Assembly (NCBI RefSeq): GCF_001463905.1
Contig: NZ_BBWR01000002.1
Coordinates: 1 to 64,000 of the forward strand
Reading direction: 5' to 3'
From: Aureimonas frigidaquae
Lineage (GTDB): Bacteria; Pseudomonadota; Alphaproteobacteria; Rhizobiales; Rhizobiaceae
DNA: 64,000 nucleotides
A program made the translations under genes and the position numbers. The notes under the pieces are model-generated. The model had not been told where the DNA came from and did not search any database. It saw nothing but the letters and a program-made list of their open reading frames with translations. Positions 4,116 through 40,894 of this stretch are shown piece by piece (position 1 is the first letter of the stretch; every line of letters begins with the position of its first letter).

Positions 4116-6899
4116 TTGGCAGACGATCAGAACGAGACTTCGCCGCCGGAGCGCCCGCGCGGAATCGAACCCGTATCCATTGTCGAGGAGATGCAGCGCT
4201 CATACCTCGATTACGCGATGAGCGTGATCGTGAGCCGTGCTCTGCCCGACGTGCGCGACGGGCTGAAGCCGGTGCACCGCCGCGTCCTCTACGCCATGTC
4301 GGAAATGGGCCTGGTCCACAACCGGCCGTACCGCAAGTCGGCGGGTGTCGTCGGCGAGGTGATGGGCAAGTTCCACCCGCATGGCGACTCATCCATCTAC
4401 GACGCCCTCGTGCGCATGGCGCAGGATTTCTCGCTTCGGGCGCCGCTGATCGACGGGCAGGGCAATTTCGGTTCGATCGACGGCGATCCGCCGGCGGCGA
4501 TGCGGTACACTGAGTGCCGCCTCGAGAAGCTGTCCGACATGCTGCTCGAGGATATCGACAAGGAAACGGTCAACTTCCAGGAAAATTACGACGGCCGTGA
4601 GCTGGAGCCGACCGTGCTTCCGGCGCGGATCCCGAACCTTCTGGTGAACGGTTCGGGCGGCATCGCCGTCGGCATGGCGACCAACATTCCGCCGCACAAT
4701 CTGGGCGAGGTGGTCAATGGCTGCATCGCCATGATCGACAATCCCGGCATCAGCCTGCCGGAACTGATGGAGATCATCCCCGGTCCGGACTTCCCGACCG
4801 GCGCTATCGTGCTCGGCCGTGCCGGCATTCAGTCCGCCTATTCCACCGGGCGCGGCTCCATCCTGATGCGCGGCAAGGTCCATATCGAGACCGGGCGGGG
4901 CGAGCGGGAATCCATCGTCATCACCGAGGTGCCGTATCAGGTCAACAAAGCCTCGATGATCGAGAAGATGGCCGAGCTGGTGCGCGACAAGCGCATCGAG
5001 GGCATCTCCGACATTCGCGACGAAAGCGACCGCGAAGGCTACCGCGTCGTCGTCGAGTTGAAGCGCGACGCGTCGTCCGATGTCGTCCTGAACCAGCTCT
5101 ACCGCTTCACGCCGCTGCAGACGTCCTTCGGCGCCAATATGGTGGCGCTCAACGGCGGCAAGCCGGAGCAGATGACGCTGTCCGACATGCTCGCGGCCTT
5201 CATCGCCTTCCGCGAAGAGGTCGTGAATCGGCGCACCAAGTTCCTGCTGCGCAAGGCACGCGAACGGGCGCATGTGTTGGTCGGGCTCGCCATCGCTGTC
5301 GCCAATATCGACGAGATCATCAAGCTGATCCGCGAGGCGCCCGATCCGGCAACCGCGCGCGAGCAGCTCATGACGCGCGACTGGGATGCCAAGGATGTGG
5401 CGCCCCTGGTGCGGCTGATCGACGATCCGGTCTATCGGATCAGCGACGCCGGCACCTACCGCCTGTCCGAAGCGCAGGCGCGGGCCATTCTGGATCTGCG
5501 CCTGCAGCGCCTGACGGCGCTCGGACGCGACGAGATCGGGGATGAGCTGAACAAGCTTGGCGCCGAGATCCGCGACTATCTGGACATCCTGTCCTCCCGC
5601 GTGCGGGTGCGCGACATCGTCAAGGACGAGCTGATCGCCGCGCGCGACGAATTCGCTACCCCGCGGCGCACGGAACTGTCCGAGGGCGCCGCGGACATGG
5701 ACGACGAGGACCTGATCCCGCGTGAGGACATGGTCGTCACGGTGAGCCATGGCGGCTACATCAAGCGCGTGCCGCTGACCACCTACCGGGCGCAGCGGCG
5801 GGGCGGCAAGGGCCGGTCCGGCATGACGCTGAAGGGAGAGGAAGACTCTGTCACGCGGCTTTTCGTGGCCAACACCCACACGCCCGTGCTGTTCTTCTCG
5901 TCCCGCGGGATCGTCTACAAGGAAAAGGTGTGGCGCCTGCCTCTGGCGACGCCGCAATCCCGCGGCAAGGCGCTGGTGAACATGCTGCCGCTCGAAAAGG
6001 GCGAGCGGATCACCTCCATCCTGCCATTGCCCAACGACGAGGAAGCCGCCGAGCGCCTGAACGTCATGTTCGCCACGACACGGGGAACGGTCCGGCGCAA
6101 CAAGCTGTCGGATTTCGTTCAGGTCAACCGAAATGGCAAGATCGCCATGAAGCTCGACGAGGCCGGGGACGAAATCCTGGCGGTCGCGACCTGCTCGGAA
6201 GATGACGACGTCCTTCTGACGGCGGCATCTGGCCAGTGCATCCGCTTCCCCACGACGGATGTGCGCGTCTTCGCCGGCCGCAATTCCGTCGGCGTGCGCG
6301 GCATGGCGCTGGCCGACGGTGACCGCCTCATCTCCATGGCGATCATGCGCCATGTCGATGCCACGCCGGCCGAGCGCGCGACCTATCTGCGCATGCGGCG
6401 CGCCGTGGAGGGCGAGGCCGGAGCCGATGTGGTGAGCGACGAGGAAGGCACGGTCGAGGATGTGTCCCTGTCGCCGGAGCGTTATGCCTTCCTGGGGGCG
6501 AATGAGGAGTTCGTGCTGACGATTAGCGAATTCGGCTTCGGCAAGCGCTCGTCCTCCTACGATTTCCGGACGATCGGGCGTGGCGGCAAGGGCATCCGCG
6601 CCACCGACGTGTCACGGCTGGCCGATATCGGCGCGCTCGTGGCGGGCTTCCCGGTCGAGGAGGGCGACCAGCTCCTGCTCATCTCCGATCGGGGGCAGAT
6701 GATCCGCGTGCCGGTCAACGGCATCCGCATCGCCAGCCGCGCGACCAAGGGCGTCACGATCTTCAACACGGCTGAGGGCGAGCGGGTCGTCTCCGTGGAG
6801 CGCATCCCGGACCAGGGAGAGGAAACCGGCATCGCGCCCGATGACGATCTTGCCGACGGTGCGCCGGAGCCGGACGCGCCGCAAACGCCGGAAGGCTGA
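4116..6899 (+). CDS. gyrA: DNA gyrase subunit A
   Basis: Breakage-reunion subunit of DNA gyrase (927 aa), forming the A2B2 enzyme that introduces negative supercoils. Translation most likely starts at TTG 4116, behind AAGGAAG. The catalytic tyrosine is Tyr131 in MRYTE (E. coli Tyr122). The quinolone-resistance region [10 protein letters not shown] is wild type at Ser92 and Asp96 (E. coli Ser83 and Asp87). The gyrase-specific GyrA box QRRGGKG appears in the C-terminal domain, separating it from topoisomerase IV ParC. The C-terminus is acidic and proline-rich. A strong hairpin follows the stop codon. Confidence 0.98.
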
Positions 6900-6909
6900 C
6901 ACGAAAAAC

Positions 6910-6936
6910 GGGGCGCGATCCGGCCGATCGCGCCCC
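6910..6936 (+). terminator. gyrA downstream hairpin
   Basis: An 11-bp perfect inverted repeat (GGGGCGCGATC and its complement) with a five-base loop lies ten bases after the gyrA stop. Only a weak T-rich stretch follows, so termination is likely but not proven. The stem is symmetric and could also serve the small minus-strand gene that converges from 7117. Confidence 0.75.
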
Positions 6937-6988
6937 GTCTCGTCATCACATTGGGAACGGCCGCACCGTCCCGGCAGGCAGGTCGTTC

Positions 6989-7117
6989 TTAATACATGAC
7001 GCGATGCTTGCGCACCGACGCCTTCACACGTGCCTTGTCGGCCTCGTTGTGGATAGTGATGGCAGTGGCCGTGAGAAGCGTGACGACCATGGCCAGGGAC
7101 AATGCGAGTATCAGCAT
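6989..7117 (-). CDS. small single-pass membrane protein (42 aa)
   Basis: ATG 7117 is preceded by an excellent Shine-Dalgarno (CTGGAGGCTTAGGA), and the frame ends with TAA at 6989. One hydrophobic helix spans about residues 2-22 (LILALSLAMVVTLLTATAIT), followed by a basic tail ending KHRVMY. It sits between gyrA and coaD in a gap that would otherwise be called empty. The function is unknown. The clear ribosome binding site, full-length helix and high third-position GC make it more credible than a chance ORF. Confidence 0.6.
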   Translation of the reverse strand: MLILALSLAMVVTLLTATAITIHNEADKARVKASVRKHRVMY

Positions 7118-7312
7118 TCCTAAGCCTCCAGATTTGCAGGGAAAACGTGGTTAATCCCCGCTTGGTTCCACGCCTTCCATGCCCCGTTCCGCAATGCGGT
7201 GTCAGGGCATCTCCGTGATGCACAGAGTGCGACAAATTCCTTGGCAGAGGGGTTTCAGGATCATGTCCAATTTTAACGAAACGGCTCTGCCGTCGCAGAG
7301 GGTTACGAAGCG

Positions 7313-7804
7313 ATGAACGCAGAGCGCCGCGCCCTCTACTCGGGCTCCTTCGACCCCGTCACCCATGGCCATGTCGACATATTGGCGCGGGGACTGGCGC
7401 TCTATGACCGGGTCATCGTGGCCATCGGTATCCATCCAGGCAAAGTGCCGCTCTTTGCTTTCGAGGAGCGGGCGGAGCTGGTGCGCGGAGCCGTCCGGAA
7501 CCTTTCGGGGGCCGAACGGCTGGATGTCATCTCTTTCAAGGGCCTGGCGATCGATGCTGCGCGGGCGCAAGGGGCGCAGGTCATGCTGCGCGGACTGCGC
7601 AGCGGCACGGACCTCGACTATGAAATGCAGATGGCGGGAATGAACGGTGCAATGGCGCCCGACGTCGAAACCGTCTTCCTGGCCGCAAGCCCGGCCGTCA
7701 GGCCCATAACCGCCACATTGGTCCGTCAGATCGCGAGCATGGGCGGCGATGTCGGCCATTTCGTCCCGGCCAATGTCGCTGCTGCCCTGAAAGCCAAATT
7801 CTAA
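7313..7804 (+). CDS. coaD: phosphopantetheine adenylyltransferase
   Basis: Catalyses the fourth step of coenzyme A synthesis, adenylating 4'-phosphopantetheine to dephospho-CoA. The 163-residue length is normal. The nucleotidyltransferase motif is at the N-terminus ([15 protein letters not shown], the family's TxGH site) and the second signature is near the C-terminus ([18 protein letters not shown]). It is cytoplasmic. The gene starts a plus-strand housekeeping run that continues through two PPIases, queA and tgt, in an order conserved in Rhizobiales. Confidence 0.97.
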
Positions 7805-7844
7805 GGGCTTTCCTGCCGCCGCCCTTCCACTGGAGTCCACCCAC

Positions 7845-8399
7845 ATGACCTTGCTCGCCCGCCTCGGCCTCGTTGCCGGCATCCTCGTCTCAGCCTTCAC
7901 CATGCAGGCCGTCGCCCAGGCGCCCGATCCCGAGAACCAGATCAAGGTCACGACGGACAAGGGTGATTTCGTCATCCAGCTCCGTCCTGACCTTGCGCCC
8001 AAGCATGTTCAGCAGATCAAGACGCTGGCTGCCGAGGGCTTCTACAACGGGGTCGTCTTCCACCGGGTGATCGACGGCTTCATGGCCCAGACGGGCGACC
8101 CGACGGGCACCGGCACCGGGGGCTCGCATCTGGCCGATCTTCCGGCCGAGTTCTCCAACGAAACCTTCGATCGGGGCACGGTGGGCATGGCCCGCGCGCA
8201 GGACCCCAATTCCGCGAACTCGCAATTCTTCATCATGCTGGCGGATGGCGATTTTCTGGACGGCCAGTACACGGTGGTCGGCGACGTGATCTCCGGCATG
8301 GATGTCGTGGACCAGATCAAGAAGGGCGATCAAGCCGCCAATGGCAAGGTCGACGATCCGGACAAGATGGTCGCGGTGACCGTCGGCGCTGCAGAGTAG
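7845..8399 (+). CDS. periplasmic cyclophilin-type peptidyl-prolyl isomerase
   Basis: A cyclophilin of 184 residues with a cleavable signal peptide (hydrophobic segment 5-22, likely cleavage after AVAQA). It should act as a proline isomerase and folding helper in the periplasm. The active-site region FHRVIDGFMAQTGDPTGTG and the SANSQFFIML motif are intact. The gene lies 40 bases after coaD and about 100 bases before a second, cytoplasmic cyclophilin. A 48-base block (8067-8114) is identical in the two genes. Confidence 0.93.
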   Translation: MTLLARLGLVAGILVSAFTMQAVAQAPDPENQIKVTTDKGDFVIQLRPDLAPKHVQQIKTLAAEGFYNGVVFHRVIDGFMAQTGDPTGTGTGGSHLADLPAEFSNETFDRGTVGMARAQDPNSANSQFFIMLADGDFLDGQYTVVGDVISGMDVVDQIKKGDQAANGKVDDPDKMVAVTVGAAE

Positions 8400-8501
8400 C
8401 ATCGCTCCAGCGGTTGTACTCCATGCCCGAATGGGGCATTGACGGCACATGCCTGGGCGGCCTTCCGGCCGTCCCGAACCCAAAGAGGAAGGAAGAAGGC
8501 C

Positions 8502-33450: not shown

Positions 33451-34566
33451 TCAGTCCCAGCGCAGTGATCCGCCATTCTGGTATTCGATCACGCGTGTCT
33501 CGAAGAAGTTCTTCTCCTTGCCGAGGTCCATGGCCTCGCTCATCCAGGGGAACGGGTTCTCACAGGCGGGAAACACCGCTTCGAGCCCAAGCTGCGCGCA
33601 GCGGCGATTGGCGATGAACCGCATATAGGTTTCGCACTGGTCGGCATTCAGGCCGAGCATGCCGCGTGGCATCGTATCGCGGCCATAGGCGGCTTCCAGT
33701 GCGGCGCCGTCGCGGATCATGCCGCGGACTTCCTCGTTGAACGCATCCGTCCACAGATGCGGGTTCTCGGCCCGGATCTGGTTGATGACGTCGACCCCGA
33801 AATTCAGGTGAAGGCTCTCGTCGCGCAGGATGTACTGGTACTGCTCGGCGATGCCGACCATCTTGCCACGCCGGCCGAGGGCCAGGATCTGCGCAAAGCC
33901 GGTATAGAACCACATGCCCTCGAAGACGACGTAGAAGGCGACGAGGTCCCGCAACAGGGTCCTGTCGGTGGCTTCCGTTCCCGTGCGGAAAGCCGGGTCC
34001 TCGACGCTCTGCGTATAGGCCAGTGCCCAGGCCGCCTTGTCGGTGATGGACGGCACCTCCCGGTACATGTTGAACAACTCGCCCTCGTCCATGCCGAGGC
34101 TCTCGACGATGTACTGGAAGGTGTGGGTGTGGATCGCCTCCTCGAAAGCCTGCCGCAGCAGGTATTGGCGGCATTCCGGATTGGCGAGATGGCGGTAGAT
34201 CGCCAGGACGATGTTGTTGGCGACAAGCGATTCCGATGCCGCAAAGAAGCCGAGATTGCGCTTGACCAGCCGGCGCTCGTCCTCCGTCAGCCCGTCGGTG
34301 GATTTCCAGAGCGCGATATCGGCCTGCATCGACACTTCCGTCGGCATCCAATGGTTGTTGCAGGCGGCAAGGTATTTTTCCCAGGCCCAATGATACTTCA
34401 TCGGCAGGAGCTGGTTCACATCGGCGCGGGCGTTGATCATCCGCTTTTCGCCGATGCTTACCCGCCCGCCGGCACGGTCGATGGCGCCAAGGCCCGTATC
34501 GGCAGCGGTGCCTGGTGTGGGGGCGCCCGGCGCGGGGGCAGGCGGGGCGAAGGTCGTGTCGAACAT
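33451..34566 (-). CDS. nrdB: class Ic ribonucleotide reductase, small subunit
   Basis: The radical-generating subunit (371 aa). The metal ligands Glu112, Glu143, His146, Glu216, Glu250 and His253 are all present. The position of the radical tyrosine of class Ia enzymes is Phe150 (EEAIHTHTF), and the first ligand is Glu rather than Asp. These are the hallmarks of class Ic enzymes such as Chlamydia trachomatis NrdB (Glu89, Phe127), which use a Mn/Fe cofactor and no tyrosyl radical. Tyr152 matches the electron-transfer Tyr129 of that enzyme. It lies 29 bases after nrdA in the same operon. Confidence 0.93.
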
Positions 34567-34595
34567 GGTTGAGTCCTTTCCTGATGTCGGGCCGG

Positions 34596-37391
34596 TCACT
34601 GGCAGGCTTCGCAGTCGGGCTCGTCGATGGCGCAGGCGCGCACCGCCACGGGCACGGCGTTGAGGCGGCCGTCGCTGACATCGAGAGTCGATTTTTCCAC
34701 GTGGCTCGCCGAGCGCGTCCGCAGGTAGTAGGTCGTCTTCAGGCCGAGCTTCCACGCCGTCCGGTACAATGTGTCGAGCGCGCGCCCGCTGGGATCGGCA
34801 AGATAGAGGTTGAGCGATTGCGCCTGGTCGAGCCAGGTCTGGCGCCGGGCCGCGGCGGCCAGCAGCCATTGCGAATCGATCTCGAATGCGGTGGCGTAGA
34901 GCGCTTTCAGCTCCCCATCCACGCGATCCAGCGGGGCGAGGGCGCCATCGTAATACTTCAGGTCGGAGATCATCACCGCGTCCCAAAGGCCGCGCTCCTT
35001 CAGGTCCCGCACCAGGTAGGGGTTCGCCACGGTGAAGTCACCGGACATGTTCGCCTTGACGAAAAGGTTCTGGTAGGTCGGCTCGATCGATTGCGAAACG
35101 CCGCAGATGTTGGAGATAGTCGCCGTCGGGGCAATCGCCATGCAATTGCTGTTGCGCATGCCCTGACGGCGGACCGTCTCGCGCAGGCTGTCCCAGTCCC
35201 GCGTGCCGCCGACGGGCAGCACCGTCCCCCGCGCTTCGGCCAACAGGGCCAGGGAATCCGGGGGTAGTATGCCCTGCGACCACAGGGAACCCTCGAAACT
35301 CGGATAGCGCCCGCGCTCCGCCGCAAGCGCGCTCGACGCCGCGATGGCGTGATAGGCGATGGCCTCCATGCTGGTATCGGCAAAGGTGACAGCCGCTTCG
35401 CTGGCATAGGGGATACGCTGGATGTGCAGCGCATCCTGGAAGCCCATCAGGCCGAGGCCGACCGGGCGATGGGCAAGGTTCGAGCGGCGCGCTTCCGGGA
35501 TCGTGTAGAAGTTGATGTCGATGACATTGTCCAGCATCCGCATGGCAACGCGCACTGTCTGCGCCAGCCGCTCCTCGTCCAGGCCGCCATCCGCGCTCAC
35601 ATGCGCCGCAAGGTTGACCGAGCCGAGGTTGCACACCGCCACCTCGTCGCCGGAGGTGTTCAGCGTGATTTCCGTGCACAGGTTGGACGAATGGATCGTG
35701 CCGACATGGCGCTGGGGCGAGCGGATGTTGCAGGCATCCTTGAAGGTGATCCAGGGATGCCCGGTCTCGAACAGCATGGTCAGCATGCGGCGCCACAGAT
35801 CGACGGCGCGCACCTTGCGATGAACCCGCAATTCCCCGCGTTCGGCGCGCGCCTCCGCGGCTTCATAGACTGTTTTGAAGGCAGGGCCGTAGCTGTCGTG
35901 GAGTTCGGGAACCTCGTCGGGGGAAAAGAGCGTCCAGCTTTCGTCGGCTTCCATGCGCTGCATGAAAAGGTCTGGAACCCAGTTGGCCGTGTTCATGTCG
36001 TGCGTGCGGCGCCGGTCGTCGCCCGTGTTCTTGCGCAGATCCAGGAAGGCTTCGATATCGATGTGCCAGCTTTCCAGATAGGCGCAGACCGCCCCCTTGC
36101 GCTTGCCGCCCTGGTTCACCGCGATCGCCGTATCGTTGGCGACCTTCAGGAAGGGGACGACACCCTGGCTCTTGCCGTTCGTGCCGCGGATATGGGCGCC
36201 CAGGCCACGGACATTCGTCCAGTCATTGCCGAGGCCGCCGGAGTACTTGGCCAGAAGGGCGTTGTCCCGGATGGATTTGAAGATGTCCGACAGATCGTCG
36301 CCGATCGTGGTCAGGAAGCAGGATGAAAGCTGTGGCCGCGGTGTTCCGGCGTTGAAGAGGGTCGGCGTCGAGGCCATGAAGCGAAAGGACGACAGGAGAT
36401 CGTAGAAGGCGATGGCAGAGCCTTCCCGATCCACTTCCTGCCGCGCCAGCCCCATGGCCACGCGCATGAAGAAGGTCTGCGGCATTTCGATATGCCGGCC
36501 GTCCGCTTGCAGAAGGTAGCGGTCATACAGCGTCTGCAGGCCGAGGAGTTGGAAGTTCCGGTCCCGCTCCGGGCGCAGCGCGGCGGCAAGACGGGGCAGG
36601 TCGAAGGCCAGGAGTTCGGGATCGATCAGCCCCGCACTGACCCCGTGGCGAAGATAGGCGGAAAGACCCTCGACGCTGTAGAGATCCGGCGCTGCGCCCT
36701 TCACGCCGAGCGCGGCCGAGACGCGGCCGGCAAGCTTGGTCAGGAGCAGCCGGGCGCTGGCATAAGCGTAGTCGGGATCGGTCTCCACCAGGCTGCGGGC
36801 CGCTAGGATGGGCGCATCGGCGAGTTCGTCCACCGACATGCCATCATAGAGATTGGCCATGGCGCCCGAAAGAATCTGGCCGGCATCCGCACCGGACAGG
36901 TCTTTGCACGCATCCTCGATGCGCCGGGCAAGGGTGGAGAGGTCGATCGGCCGCCGCGTGCCATCGGGTGATGCCAGATGAAACACCGGCGCGGGCGCCG
37001 CTGCCTCCTGCGCCTGGCGGTCAAGCGCGCGTTCCTCCCGGTACAGTACATAGGCGCGCGCCACCTTGTGATGGCCGCCCCGCATCAGGGCCAGCTCGAC
37101 CTGATCCTGTATGTCCTCGATATGGACGACATGATCGCGACCGGCCCGGCGTTCGACAGCGGCCACCACGGCCTGCGTCAGGGCGGCGACCAGATCGTGC
37201 ACCCGGGGCGAGCCCGCGGCCGAGCGCCCTTCGACCGCCAGGAAGGCCTTGGTCATCGCCGCGGCGATCTTGGCCGGGGCGAAGCGGTCCGTCGCGCCAT
37301 CGCGCCGGATGACGCGCAATGCGGTGCGCAGCGCGTCTTCGTTCAGCGGGGATGCCGTATCGTCGGACCGGGTTTGCAGGAGTGTGGACAT
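34596..37391 (-). CDS. nrdA: class I ribonucleotide reductase, large subunit
   Basis: The catalytic subunit (931 aa). An ATP-cone (about residues 22-110) sits at the N-terminus and should give dATP inhibition. Active-site elements are [19 protein letters not shown] and VAVCNLGS (the three cysteines), KTTYYLRTR (the Tyr-Tyr radical-transfer pair), and a C-terminal DCEACQ thiol pair. ATG 37391 is the expected start, with GGAG upstream. Its leader carries a cobalamin riboswitch and an NrdR box. It forms an operon with nrdB. Confidence 0.95.
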
Positions 37392-37519
37392 GCTGCGTGT
37401 GCTCCGTTGGGTGGAGCGGGGACGAGCGGAACCGTGCACGACCGCGGCTGGGACGATCCCAAGGAGCGCCCGCCGCACGACACGATCCACCGGGACACCC
37501 CGCCCGGGGAAAGATCTGG

Positions 37520-37700
37520 CGTCGCGGCAGGTCTCCTGACTTGCGGGTCATCGTCCGGTGCCGAACCTTCCCAGACTTGAAGTCCAGTGGTTGGAGCGTG
37601 GCATCGAACTCGTCGCATACAGTTGCGGGGGCAGTTCCGGCTTTGCGGTAAGCGTACCGGATTCCCTCTTAGCTTCCATGCTTTGTGGTCATGGAAGACC
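37520..37700 (-). ncRNA. cobalamin (AdoCbl) riboswitch in the nrdAB leader
   Basis: Reading the minus strand, the leader holds the cobalamin-riboswitch landmarks in order: GAGGGAATCCGGT, then CCGGAACTGCCCCCGCAACTG, then a variable part, then ACCCGCAAGTCAGGAGACC with the B12 box ending CTGCCG (near 37526-37545). A 5' inverted repeat CTTCCATG/CATGGAAG (37673-37697) fits the P2/P3 arm. About 130 bases separate it from the nrdA ATG and contain a GGGATCGTCCC hairpin that could be the expression platform. Bound B12 should switch the operon off. Confidence 0.93.
37673..37688 (-). promoter_or_regulatory. possible second, degenerate NrdR box
   Basis: CCACAAAGCATGGAAG keeps only part of the NrdR consensus, but its centre lies exactly 32 bp (three helical turns) from the strong box at 37705, the usual spacing for paired NrdR sites. 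The same bases also belong to the 5' arm of the riboswitch, so the resemblance may be coincidental. Confidence 0.35.
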
Positions 37701-37704
37701 GTGA

Positions 37705-37720
37705 CCACAATATGTTGTGT
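37705..37720 (-). promoter_or_regulatory. NrdR box upstream of nrdAB
   Basis: ACACAACATATTGTGG on the minus strand matches the NrdR consensus acaCwAtATaTwGtgt at about 14 of 16 positions. It lies just upstream of the riboswitch, where the promoter should be. NrdR is a nucleotide-sensing repressor of ribonucleotide reductase operons. Confidence 0.75.
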
Positions 37721-37848
37721 GATGGGCCGCGGGCTGTCAACCCGCCCGCGCGGCTATCCACATCCGTGGGGTGGCTAAGGATACGGATAACGTCAGTTGT
37801 GCATGTCTTTGTTTGCGCAATTGTACTTTGCGCACGGGTGCGGCAAAG

Positions 37849-39375
37849 ATGCACGAAATCTTCGTGGTCGAGCGTTTCATGCCCATCAGCCAGCGACAAT
37901 TCTACCTGCGCACCTCCGCCTTCCTGGCGGCCGGTCTCATCCTCCTGGTCGTGATCGTGGCGTGCTCGCTCTATCTGACGGAGCGCACATCGGCCAATTT
38001 CGACCGCGTCGTCGCCACGCGGGAGTTGCGCAGCTCCGCCGCGGATCTGATGAGTGTTCTGACGGAGGCCGAATCGGGCCAGCGGGGATACCTTCTGACG
38101 CAGGACGAGCGCTACCTTGCCCCGTATCGCCTGGCGTTGGGCCGCCTGGAAACAATGCTGGAGCGGCTGGAGCAGGCCCAGCGCAACGTGACCGGAACGC
38201 CGCTGGATTTTGCGGAACTGAAGCAGGGGGTCGAAACCAAGATCGCCGAGCTGGAAGATACGGTGCGTGAGGTCGATGCCGGCAACACGCAAACCGCGCT
38301 CGAAACCCTGCGTTCCGGCACCGGACTGGCGTTGATGACGCAGATCCGCGAAAAGCTGAACCGTACCCTTTCCACAAGCGAGGCGGAACTTCAGATCGCC
38401 ATTGCCGATCAGGAGCGGATCGGCGCCTGGCTGCGCAATACGACGATCTTCGGTGCGCTGGCGCTGCTTGCCATGGCAGTTGCCGCAGCCGTGATCATCC
38501 TGCGCTACACGCGGGAGATCGTCGATGCCCGCAGCGAGGTGGAGGCGGCCAATTCGGCCCTGGAAGCGCGGGTGCAGGAGCGGACCCAGGATCTGATGAA
38601 GGCCAATGAAGAGATCCAGCGCTTCGCCTATATCGTCACGCACGATCTGCGCGCGCCGCTGGTGAACATCATGGGCTTTACGAGCGAGCTCGAGGCCACG
38701 TTCGAACCCGTCCGCACTTACCTCGAAAAGCTGCCCGATGCCGATCCGCGGCTCAAGGAGGCCGCCGATCTGGCCATGCGCGAGGATGTGCCGGAGGCCA
38801 TCACCTTCATCCGCTCCTCGACCCGCAAGATGGATGGGCTCATCAATGCCATCCTGCGCATCTCGCGCGAGGGGCGGCGGACGCTGAAGCCCGAGCGGGT
38901 CGATCTTGCGGAGGTTGTGGAAACGGCGACGGGCGCCGTCCATCACCAGACCGTGGAAGATGGCGGGGAGATCGTGACCGAGCTGCGCGCCGGCAGCATC
39001 GTGACGGACCGCCTGTCGCTCGACCAGATGCTCGGCAACCTCCTCGACAACGCGATCAAGTATCGCAATCCGGGCCGGCCGCTGCGCGTCGTCGTGCGCA
39101 CGCGGCAGGATGCTTTCGGCCGCGTCGTCATCGAGGTGGAAGACAATGGCCGCGGCATCGCGTCCACCGACCATGAACGGGTGTTCGAACTCTTCCGCCG
39201 CTCGGGCAAACAGGATAGGCCGGGCGAGGGCATCGGGCTGGCGCATGTGCGCACGCTGGCCCGCAATCTGGGCGGAGACATCAACGTCGCGTCGGAGTTG
39301 GGAGTGGGCTCGACCTTCACCATCTCTCTTCCGGCAGATATCAGAACCGTGAAGCGGAGCATCGAAAGCGCATGA
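37849..39375 (+). CDS. CHASE3-domain membrane sensor histidine kinase
   Basis: A 508-residue kinase. Two membrane helices (about 22-44 and 199-219) flank a periplasmic CHASE3 domain with the AESGQRGYLLT motif near residue 75. A short coiled coil (225-255) leads to a HisKA/HATPase core with phosphoacceptor His265 (IVTHDLRAPL), an N box (LLDNAIKYRN) and a G box (GEGIGLAHV). The start is uncertain; ATG 37849 or 37879 are likeliest. The stop overlaps the receiver gene by four bases, so the receiver is its probable partner. Confidence 0.9.
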   Translation: MHEIFVVERFMPISQRQFYLRTSAFLAAGLILLVVIVACSLYLTERTSANFDRVVATRELRSSAADLMSVLTEAESGQRGYLLTQDERYLAPYRLALGRLETMLERLEQAQRNVTGTPLDFAELKQGVETKIAELEDTVREVDAGNTQTALETLRSGTGLALMTQIREKLNRTLSTSEAELQIAIADQERIGAWLRNTTIFGALALLAMAVAAAVIILRYTREIVDARSEVEAANSALEARVQERTQDLMKANEEIQRFAYIVTHDLRAPLVNIMGFTSELEATFEPVRTYLEKLPDADPRLKEAADLAMREDVPEAITFIRSSTRKMDGLINAILRISREGRRTLKPERVDLAEVVETATGAVHHQTVEDGGEIVTELRAGSIVTDRLSLDQMLGNLLDNAIKYRNPGRPLRVVVRTRQDAFGRVVIEVEDNGRGIASTDHERVFELFRRSGKQDRPGEGIGLAHVRTLARNLGGDINVASELGVGSTFTISLPADIRTVKRSIESA

Positions 39376-39815
39376 CCAACGCCAAGCCCGTCCAGATCGT
39401 CATGATCGAGGATGATGAGGGGCACGCCCGCCTGATCGAGAAGAACATCCGCCGCGCGGGCGTCAACAACGAGATCATCCCCTTTGCGAACGGCACGGAG
39501 GCGCTGGCCTTCCTGTTCGGAGACGACGGCTCGGGCGAGGTGAGCGCCGGGCGGCATCTCCTTATCCTCCTGGACCTCAACCTGCCCGATATGGGCGGCG
39601 TGGACATATTGGAGCGCGTCAAGGCGAACACCCATCTGAAGCGCTCGCCCGTCATCGTGCTGACGACGACCGACGACAGCCGCGAGATCCAGCGCTGCTA
39701 CGATCTCGGCGCCAATGTCTACATTACCAAGCCGGTCGATTATGAGGGCTTTGCCAACGCCATCCGCCAGCTCGGCCTGTTCTTCTCGGTCATGCAAGTG
39801 CCCGAAACGGAATGA
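39372..39815 (+). CDS. single-domain response regulator (Rcp1-like)
   Basis: A 147-residue stand-alone receiver with phosphoacceptor Asp68 (ILLDLNLPDM), the acidic pair EDD at 13-15 and the conserved Lys in YITKPVDY. The insertion between the third helix and strand (DDGSGEVSAG) is typical of Rcp1-type receivers paired with phytochrome-like or CHASE3 kinases. It has no output domain and so should relay phosphate or bind a partner. It is translationally coupled at both ends (ATGA overlaps). Confidence 0.92.
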   Translation: MTNAKPVQIVMIEDDEGHARLIEKNIRRAGVNNEIIPFANGTEALAFLFGDDGSGEVSAGRHLLILLDLNLPDMGGVDILERVKANTHLKRSPVIVLTTTDDSREIQRCYDLGANVYITKPVDYEGFANAIRQLGLFFSVMQVPETE

Positions 39816-40894
39816 GTGACCTGGCGGCTCCCGGCACGGCGGCGACGCCGGCGGTACGTGTTCTCTATATCGATGACGACCCGGTGGCGGGGCGCCTGGC
39901 GCAGCGCGCGCTCGGGCGGCTCGGCATCGATGTCGTACACGCGCCCGATGCCACGGCCGGCCTGGCGTTGTTGACGCAGGGCAGCTACGACGCCGTCATC
40001 CTGGATCACGATCTCGGCACAAGCTCCGGCATGGACGTGCTCGCGGCGCTGTCGGGGATGGAGCATGCCCCGCCGGCGGTCTACGTGACGGCTTCGACGG
40101 AACTGTCGATCGCCGTGGATGCGCTGAAGGCCGGGGCTGTCGATTATGTTGTGAAGACGGTGGGGAGCGAGTTCGACGTGCTTCTGGCCGCCGCCGTTCG
40201 CGCCTCCGTCGAAAAGGCGCGCCTGCGCCGTGCCAAGGAACAGGCCGACGAGGCCGTCCGCGAAGCGCGCGACCGGGCCGAGGCCATGCTGGCGGAAGTG
40301 AACCACCGTGTCGCCAACAGCCTGGCGCTCGTGGGCTCGCTCGTGCGCATGCAGAGCCATGATGCAAGTGACCCTGCCGTGCGCGAAGCCCTGTCGGAGG
40401 TTCAGGCCCGCATCACCGCAGTCGCCAATCTGCACCGCAGCCTCTATACGAGCGCCGATGTGCGACAGGTCGATCTGGACGCCTATCTCGGCACCTTGGT
40501 CCACGACCTGGCCCGGTCCATGGCCGATGGCAGCACCGTTCCACATATCCGGCTGGCGGCCGAACCGATGCAGGTTTCGCCCGACAAGGCCGTCGCGATC
40601 GGCGTCATCGCCACCGAACTCGTCACCAATGCCATCAAATATGCCTACCCGGCGGAGAAGGGGGAAATCCGCGTCAATCTGGTTCGTTTGGCTGGCCAAA
40701 GAACGGAACTCTCGGTAGAGGATGATGGTATCGGATGGCGCGGCGCTGGCCCGATCAAAGGGACGGGCCTGGGGGCCAAAATCGTGACGGCGCTGTCCCG
40801 CAGCCTGGACAGCGAGCTCGTTTACGAGGCGATGCCGCGGGGAACACGCGCCGTCATCGCCTTCGACGCGCCGGATCCGGGGGGCGTGGGGTGA
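39812..40894 (+). CDS. hybrid receiver-histidine kinase (HisKA_2/HWE type)
   Basis: A 360-residue protein with an N-terminal receiver (Asp65 in VILDHDLG, residues 15-125), a coiled-coil linker (135-160), and a HisKA_2-type kinase with phosphoacceptor His165 (EVNHRVANSLALV), an N box (ELVTNAIKYAYP) and a G box (GTGLGAKIVTAL). It has no sensor domain of its own, so input probably comes by phosphorylation of the receiver from the upstream kinase. The only nearby receivers are its own and Asp68 of the upstream protein. Confidence 0.9.
   Translation: MSDLAAPGTAATPAVRVLYIDDDPVAGRLAQRALGRLGIDVVHAPDATAGLALLTQGSYDAVILDHDLGTSSGMDVLAALSGMEHAPPAVYVTASTELSIAVDALKAGAVDYVVKTVGSEFDVLLAAAVRASVEKARLRRAKEQADEAVREARDRAEAMLAEVNHRVANSLALVGSLVRMQSHDASDPAVREALSEVQARITAVANLHRSLYTSADVRQVDLDAYLGTLVHDLARSMADGSTVPHIRLAAEPMQVSPDKAVAIGVIATELVTNAIKYAYPAEKGEIRVNLVRLAGQRTELSVEDDGIGWRGAGPIKGTGLGAKIVTALSRSLDSELVYEAMPRGTRAVIAFDAPDPGGVG

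Follow-up and report, generated by a model that had tools for sequence, protein, structure and literature searches.

The nrdAB genes in the 64,000-nucleotide stretch of Aureimonas frigidaquae DNA analysed here (the window) very probably encode a B12-repressed, class Ic ribonucleotide reductase (RNR) that backs up NrdJ, the B12-dependent class II enzyme encoded in the same genome. As judged from the gene and leader sequences, B12 most likely keeps nrdAB off while NrdJ can work. When adenosylcobalamin is plentiful, it would be bound by the leader RNA and nrdAB expression would be shut, with NrdJ supplying deoxynucleotides; under B12 shortage, the leader would be open and the class Ic enzyme produced. 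NrdR, acting at a single promoter box, would damp nrdAB transcription once deoxynucleotides suffice. The interval 33451-37720, which the earlier note gave for this system, proved to be right, and the features in and beside it are as follows:

33451 to 34566, minus strand: nrdB, class Ic-type small subunit, 371 aa (NF005550, 653.9 bits)
34596 to 37391, minus strand: nrdA, class I RNR large subunit, 931 aa, ATG start (NF005544, 1532.6 bits; cut-off 965)
37401 to 37417, minus strand: hairpin enclosing the Shine-Dalgarno (SD) sequence GGAG directly 5' of the ATG, called from SD pairing probability
37490 to 37507, minus strand: P13-like hairpin, loop CGGGG (37502-37498) complementary to aptamer L5 CCCCG (37630-37626)
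37509 to 37718, minus strand: cobalamin riboswitch aptamer RF00174, full model, 129.7 bits
37705 to 37720, no strand assigned: NrdR box ACACAACATATTGTGG, palindromic, 14/16
37735 to 37740, minus strand: -35-like TTGACA, 20 bases upstream of the NrdR box

An nrdJ gene, which the reasoning of the earlier note presupposes, is present in the genome (1267 aa; NF005736, 2284.7 bits), and so is nrdR (TIGR00244, 167.8 bits; cut-off 124.65), as membership of an NrdR regulon calls for. Three further B12 riboswitches in the genome are associated with core MetE, an ABC transporter and cobW/cobN.

The B12 switch tracks the class Ic signature across loci from many alphaproteobacterial genera. Among the named loci (the best 80 of 385 related loci), a riboswitch lies upstream of nrdA in 77, and first-ligand Glu together with radical-site Phe (E/F) is found in 80/80. 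A riboswitch precedes class Ic nrdA in 77/78 nrdJ-bearing genomes counted. Of the seven class Ic genomes without nrdJ, four, from three lineages, lack it or carry a decayed copy, and the other three retain a match. This comparison supports the proposal that B12 turns off the B12-independent enzyme, and repression is the predicted sign of the B12 effect on nrdAB. Locus L094 carries nrdJ and lacks the riboswitch, and neither was found at L093, L135 and L136, the last two of which belong to another class. Riboswitch matches without detectable nrdJ occur at L048, which is a MAG, at L058, in which the aptamer core is mutated, and at L090, whose 97.0% identity to Brucella pseudintermedia over 7.1 kb marks it as recently moved or a contaminant. 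The association between nrdJ and the riboswitch is not significant in the 78 named genomes alone (Fisher p = 0.10), and reaches p = 8e-5 when same-genus and distant genomes are included, a value computed on genomes that are related and not independent. These counts leave out L033 (leader beyond the contig), L023 (contig without nrdB), L049, L015, L017, L018 and L021, the last four taken as repeats of the genomes of L026, L025, L027 and L031 on account of their similar leaders, and L137-L144 as possible duplicates of named loci, 8/8 of which have riboswitch and nrdJ; L083 was scored nrdJ-positive from a contig-edge fragment below the cut-off.

The nearer class Ia (Asp/Tyr) relatives have a riboswitch upstream of nrdA in 0/30 cases (Rfam on 18 + 12), with nrdA adjacent in 30/30. 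Since 14 of these 30 genomes carry nrdJ, we rejected, for these relatives, the rule that nrdJ alone brings a riboswitch. That the riboswitch is exclusive to class Ic was likewise rejected, with RF00174 found upstream at L178 and L179, two distant Asp/Tyr loci of one genus, and at the cyanobacterial plasmid locus L184.

We next consider the promoter region. The strong NrdR box that the earlier note had described was recovered: scored against ACACWATATATWGTGT, which we take to be the consensus, it is the sole match with two or fewer mismatches in 64 kb, where 0.01 would be expected. NrdR boxes usually come as a tandem pair; such a pair was looked for in the window leader, and only one box was found. 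The -35-like TTGACA (37740-37735) sits just beyond the 33451-37720 interval, and a TTGA/TTGC-type motif starts 20-22 bases upstream of the best box in 52/82 leaders; a sigma-70 consensus scan of 37300-37900 returned no promoters, the TTGACA being without a good -10 partner. A rival reading is that the conserved box is mainly a -10 promoter element, which we regard as unlikely. Its position is roughly that expected of a -10 element, the box is single, and just 38/82 leaders score at least 11/16 (vs 4% of shuffles). Nevertheless, the box is a poor -10 against consensus, its 14/16 score is hardly expected by chance in 64 kb, and nrdR is encoded in the genome. Moreover, the palindrome positions are C and G in 38/38 of the better matches, partly as a result of score selection, and the riboswitch-less L135 and L136 show, by eye, a tandem pair of similar boxes. 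NrdR thus probably binds the window box, to judge by its sequence. The box and the riboswitch match overlap by 14 bases, at the 5' end of the latter. The physical part of the earlier claim that B12, Mn/Fe and nucleotide sensing are linked at one promoter consequently stood, whereas we obtained no evidence of cross-talk.

Assignment of the small subunit to class Ic rests on its metal/radical site, at which the translation places E112, E143, H146, F150, E216, E250 and H253. The earlier note had read Phe150 and Glu112 as class Ic marks; translation and phmmer alignment to Chlamydia NrdB (1syy/4d8f, E about 1e-126) agree with this reading, with Phe and no Tyr at the radical position, Glu instead of Asp as the first metal ligand, and the remaining five ligands retained. 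The offset of 23 from the Chlamydia protein, also claimed previously, is constant across the metal-site region (1syy numbering), which single-residue gaps flank on both sides; we take the published Chlamydia numbering to be E89, E120, H123, F127, E193, E227 and H230. In a tree of 47 NrdB rows, the window protein groups with Chlamydia and Saccharopolyspora, apart from Tyr-type relatives, and all E/F rows lie on one side of a branch with support 86/95; the two signature columns were kept in, and Chlamydia and haloarchaeal L185 were flagged as long branches. Across NrdB reads, E occurs with F in 89/89 and 14/51 and D with Y in 37/51, with no mixed pairs. The closest solved relative, Saccharopolyspora erythraea R2 (PDB 6y2n; PMC7467353), is 79.6% identical over 338 residues and carries the E/F signature. 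The partner subunit, NrdA, contains PF02867, PF00317, an N-terminal ATP-cone (PF03477) and a C-terminal Cys pair (CEAC).

On these residues, the NrdB metal is predicted to be Mn/Fe. Two Mn or two Fe serve as the metal pair in some RNR classes that lack a radical tyrosine, and residues alone do not set the metal. That the window enzyme belongs with these is nonetheless improbable, as the Phe and the first-ligand Glu, both class Ic marks, are present and co-vary, and NrdB lies on the Chlamydia class Ic side of the tree, its E/F-bearing relative 6y2n pointing the same way.

The cobalamin riboswitch that the earlier note had called clear matches the whole RF00174 model (E 2.7e-32, 129.7 bits vs a gathering score of 31.5), with the conserved aptamer core intact. 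The window leader shows L5-L13 complementarity (CCCCG/CGGGG), presumably the kissing loop whose role is known from solved class-I cobalamin riboswitches. CGGGGTG is present in 81/82 leaders and CCCCGC in L5 in 81/82, one locus, L058, having neither; the elements are invariant, hence covariation offers no proof of the pairing. The alternative in which the riboswitch is neutral or a relic and nrdAB is controlled by NrdR alone can point to missing or decayed riboswitches at L019, L093 and L094, and to the 30 sampled Asp/Tyr relatives that manage without one. We consider it very improbable for the window, in which the full-length, high-scoring aptamer retains its core, and given the near-universal retention of the L5 and L13 elements.

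R2-like ligand-binding oxidases (R2lox) are also Mn/Fe proteins in which the radical tyrosine is absent, yet NrdB is almost certainly not one of them, R2lox identity being refuted by model scores (29.5-59.6 bits, below cut-offs of 194-346, vs 653.9 for the RNR beta model NF005550), and nrdA adjoins nrdB in the window and lies 3' of the riboswitch in 86/86 leaders.

How the B12-repressed standby might be switched was approached through leader folding. In-frame GTG codons upstream of nrdA are alternative starts; the ATG is preceded by the GGAG. Mean SD pairing probability is 0.95 vs 0.86 in shuffled upstream sequence, with 70/75 leaders above their shuffles (75 of the 82 leaders were used, the other seven lacking an obvious SD at the start codon selected). 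Because SD-region stems are barely longer than those of shuffles (mean about 6.5 vs 6.1 pairs), it is mainly pairing probability that supports the hairpin. A search of the nrdA strand of the leader turned up no intrinsic terminator, in keeping with translational control, and the folding models suggest that such control may operate through the SD hairpin. An antisequester in which the L13 module pairs with the anti-SD arm appeared plausible by eye in the window and was rejected: duplex energies beat the shuffle mean in just 38/75 loci, overlap with the anti-SD arm reached at least 3 bases in 31/75, and the window duplex was equalled or beaten by 90/100 shuffles. The window leader folded alone gave no signal (z = 0.37). 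RNAalifold on 52 non-redundant leaders, five further leaders being excluded, returned a candidate long-range helix.

Several features of this system have precedents. The class Ic RNR of Chlamydia trachomatis (1syy, 2ani, 4d8f) resembles that of the window in its radical-site Phe, first-ligand Glu and side of the tree; we know of no B12 riboswitch or NrdJ partner for it. The title of Borovok 2006 reportedly names Streptomyces coelicolor nrdABS class Ia. According to PMC3293853, nrdABS is a B12-riboswitch-controlled, oxygen-dependent RNR beside nrdRJ; common to both genomes are nrdAB behind a B12 riboswitch, NrdJ and NrdR, whereas S. coelicolor differs in its class Ia description, an AraC-like nrdS in the operon, and its phylum. 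Propionibacterium acnes nrdAB (PMC3848588) has a cobalamin riboswitch in its 5' UTR and just one NrdR box, which overlaps the promoter, with nrdRJ elsewhere, and the same logic is proposed; RNA-seq there suggests termination ahead of the first gene, in contrast to the SD hairpin and terminator-free nrdA strand of the window. Control of class I RNR by B12 riboswitch plus NrdR is thus already known, while the class Ic tie, the disappearance of the switch alongside nrdJ and the common association with metE, on a plasmid too, are apparently less known.

A broader reading, which we hold only tentatively and at somewhat less than even chances, is that in Alphaproteobacteria class Ic nrdAB forms a mobile module conferring independence from B12, frequently accompanied by metE and carried on plasmids as well. 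Its riboswitch would be under selection only while NrdJ is present, and would decay after nrdJ loss hands the work to class Ic. If so, the Mn/Fe enzyme would be a regular partner of the B12-dependent RNR in Alphaproteobacteria, and the manganese demand of the cell would rise under B12 scarcity. In Sinorhizobium meliloti, nrdJ is described as essential (PMC6759758, which also describes a delta-nrdJ laboratory strain living on E. coli nrdAB), and growth that depends on NrdJ as needing 25 times more cobalamin than growth that depends on MetH, or 15 times more of a benzimidazole analogue (PMC12013260); acquisition of the nrdAB module thus plausibly frees the cell from its most B12-demanding step.

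The same-genus, one-contig genome G007 offers a natural experiment on whether the switch is needed only while NrdJ is there. It has no nrdJ, and its aptamer has decayed to 52-53% identity, compared with 84-93% among sister species; three other RF00174 matches above cut-off are retained. The 60 bases upstream, 43-56% identical, have diverged as much as the aptamer, so that neutral drift across the entire leader could account for the decay. As for metE, the other B12-replacing gene, it is linked to nrdAB in 29/80 named loci. Like nrdAB, B12-riboswitch metE encodes a B12-independent isozyme, serving methionine synthesis instead of deoxynucleotides, and the core-MetE leader of the genome shares the P13 module CGGGCGGGGTGTCCCGG.

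The two reductase genes and their leader comprise the following features.

33451-34566, minus strand: nrdB, 371 aa (NF005550, 653.9 bits)
34596-37391, minus strand: nrdA, 931 aa, with an ATP-cone (NF005544, 1532.6 bits)
37718-37509, minus strand: cobalamin riboswitch (Rfam RF00174), 129.7 bits over the whole model, the sole one in the window
37705-37720: NrdR box, 14/16, the sole such match in the window (0.01 expected)

Reading of the NrdB sites placed E112, E143, H146, E216, E250 and H253 as metal ligands and F150 at the radical position, the Glu-plus-Phe (E/F) signature of class Ic as distinct from the Asp-plus-Tyr (D/Y) of class Ia. The earlier note had claimed a constant offset of 23 to Chlamydia NrdB, and alignment to 1syy (E 2.7e-126) bore this out over the metal-site region. 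The top solved-structure match, 6y2n, described in PMC7467353 as R2 of Saccharopolyspora erythraea, was 79.6% identical over 338 residues, with the seven site residues identical; the nearest named relatives were Aureimonas (NrdB identity up to 91%). At the base of the P13 hairpin, a GTG (37490) can be read in frame into nrdA with no intervening stop; the ATG at 37391 is preferred as the probable start.

There is a single NrdR box, where a tandem pair is usual, and it overlaps the aptamer match at the 5' end of the latter. In the 9 kb around nrdJ and the 8 kb around nrdR, no NrdR-like site reached 13/16. TTGACA lies 20 bases upstream of the box, a sigma-70 consensus scan of the leader region returned 0 passing sites, and no terminator-like site was found on the nrdA strand of the leader. 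The hairpin immediately upstream of the start codon contains the Shine-Dalgarno sequence, whose mean pairing probability was 0.95, compared to 0.86 when the sequence upstream was shuffled; the real value was the higher one in 70 of 75 leaders. The motif CGGGGTG, 3' of the aptamer, was kept in 81 of 82 leaders and in the window forms a hairpin loop complementary to the aptamer CCCCG, a complementarity that fits the kissing loop known from cobalamin riboswitches of class I. An antisequester expected to couple the aptamer and the Shine-Dalgarno hairpin performed no better than shuffles and was rejected. Divergent from nrdA, and sharing its upstream region, is a sensor histidine kinase gene followed by two response-regulator-like genes (37771-40894).

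The window's own genome (4.10 Mb, 99.99% complete) has a single nrdR, a single nrdJ (1267 aa; NF005736, 2284.7 bits against a cut-off of 1737) and four cobalamin riboswitches, including that of the nrdA leader. The second (L009 5693-7891, near 84 kb of contig C2) precedes a putatively DUF1852-like gene, together with a gene for a core-type methionine synthase (666.1 bits to NF006589), and its P13 module matches that of the nrdA leader; an NCBIfam search of the stretch given for the DUF1852-like gene returned no match. The third precedes a siderophore/B12-type ABC transporter (model matches below cut-offs), and the fourth a gene run including cobW and cobN.

A genome scan yielded 385 related loci, of which the best 80 were kept (NrdB identity 79-91%; nearly all labelled Alphaproteobacteria). 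Together with the window and nine same-genus loci these made up 90 loci, four of them probable duplicates, and E-E-H-F-E-E-H was present in all 89 readable NrdBs, L023 having no nrdB on its contig. Using our own covariance model, built from 12 riboswitches, we found a riboswitch ahead of nrdA in 77 of these best 80 loci; the misses were L033 (contig edge), L093 and L094. RF00174 matched 8 of 9 same-genus nrdA orthologue loci, and a search of L024, a distant same-genus nrdA of another family, found none.

The class Ic-type enzyme is infrequent in wide genome samples. A close relative (at least 80% identity) occurred in 3 of 289 genomes of the class sample, own included, and a distant NrdB (27-33%) in 82; of the 398 genomes in the phylum sample, 72 matched at 1e-60, and identity was at least 80% in eight, own included. 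We read the sites of 51 extra loci (from 45 of the 72 matching genomes, from G340 of the class sample and from five plasmid records): 14 were E/F, 37 D/Y and none mixed. Neither our model nor RF00174 found a riboswitch at any of 30 D/Y loci at ~60-67% identity, and 14 of these 30 genomes had a separate nrdJ above the TIGR02504 cut-off. Among six more distant D/Y loci, two of one genus had a riboswitch ahead of class Ia nrdAB (L178, 2834-3041; L179, 5082-5375), and some of the other four may be cut before the leader. On a cyanobacterial plasmid of Acaryochloris marina (L184, 877-1021), a riboswitch likewise precedes a small gene and class Ia nrdAB, with cobW downstream; thus, class Ic is not alone in having the riboswitch. 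In a tree of 47 NrdB rows, one change sufficed between D/Y and E/F (support 86/95) and the window grouped with Chlamydia and Saccharopolyspora, Chlamydia and the haloarchaeal L185 being flagged as long branches.

NF005736 detected nrdJ in 41 of 43 genomes, 39 of them above cut-off; in a set of 39 genomes, L093, L058, L048 and L090 either gave no TIGR02504 match apart from nrdA or gave one that was not class II-like. L083, with nrdJ only as a contig-edge fragment, was scored present. Among the 78 named genomes in which both features could be scored, 73 had both nrdJ and the riboswitch, one nrdJ only (L094), three the riboswitch only (L048, L058, L090) and one neither (L093), which by itself gives Fisher p = 0.10. 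Adding the window, three same-genus genomes with both (L016, L020, L022), and L019, L135 and L136 with neither, gave 77, 1, 3 and 4, respectively (p = 8e-5), a value that is only a guide because the genomes are related.

The informative cases are separate lineages. The one-contig congener G007 (locus L019), whose nrdB is sister to that of L020 among the tree rows, contains no nrdJ. Its aptamer is decayed, with 52-53% identity to sisters that share 84-93% mutually; the 60 bases upstream have diverged as much, a P13-like hairpin with a changed loop remains visible upstream of nrdA, and three other riboswitches score above cut-off elsewhere in the genome. L093 likewise has neither nrdJ nor a riboswitch match ahead of nrdA and keeps two other riboswitches. 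L135 and L136, of another class, also lack both and show a tandem pair of NrdR boxes by eye. L058 retains a match that has lost the otherwise invariant aptamer-loop (L5) and downstream hairpin-loop (L13) elements. Counter to a proposed rule that the riboswitch is retained only with nrdJ are L048 (a metagenome-assembled genome), L090 and L094. L090 (1-7098, Erythrobacter tepidarius) is 97.0% identical over 7.1 kb to L078 of Brucella pseudintermedia, which would reflect either recent transfer or assembly contamination.

The regulatory arrangement is already known, since PMC3293853, citing Borovok 2006, places Streptomyces nrdABS under B12-riboswitch control, and PMC3848588 describes Propionibacterium acnes nrdAB as having one NrdR box together with a cobalamin riboswitch, with the same logic proposed. 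Those enzymes, compared by description rather than by NrdB sequence, might themselves be class Ic-type. Our literature search, in which subscription journals were poorly covered, found no publication that connects a B12 riboswitch with class Ic. The parts worth following are riboswitch retention with nrdJ and the linkage to metE.

In 29 of the best 80 of 385 loci, the flanks covered (up to 6 kb) include metE (27) or a core metE (2). Among the example loci examined, metE beside nrdAB usually had its own B12 riboswitch (L030, L043, L064, L068, L075, L096, L182 at 6125-8479, and others). Of 21 genomes of the genus, the window's own among them, only 10 have nrdA, one copy being a fragment, and nrdB at 82-84% identity occurs on seven plasmid records. 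The three plasmids examined (Aureimonas, Methylocella, Phyllobacterium) all carry the riboswitch and E/F sites. On that of Methylocella tundrae, metE adjoins nrdAB and has a second riboswitch. Taken together, nrdAB and metE appear to form a B12-independent enzyme set that can be transferred.
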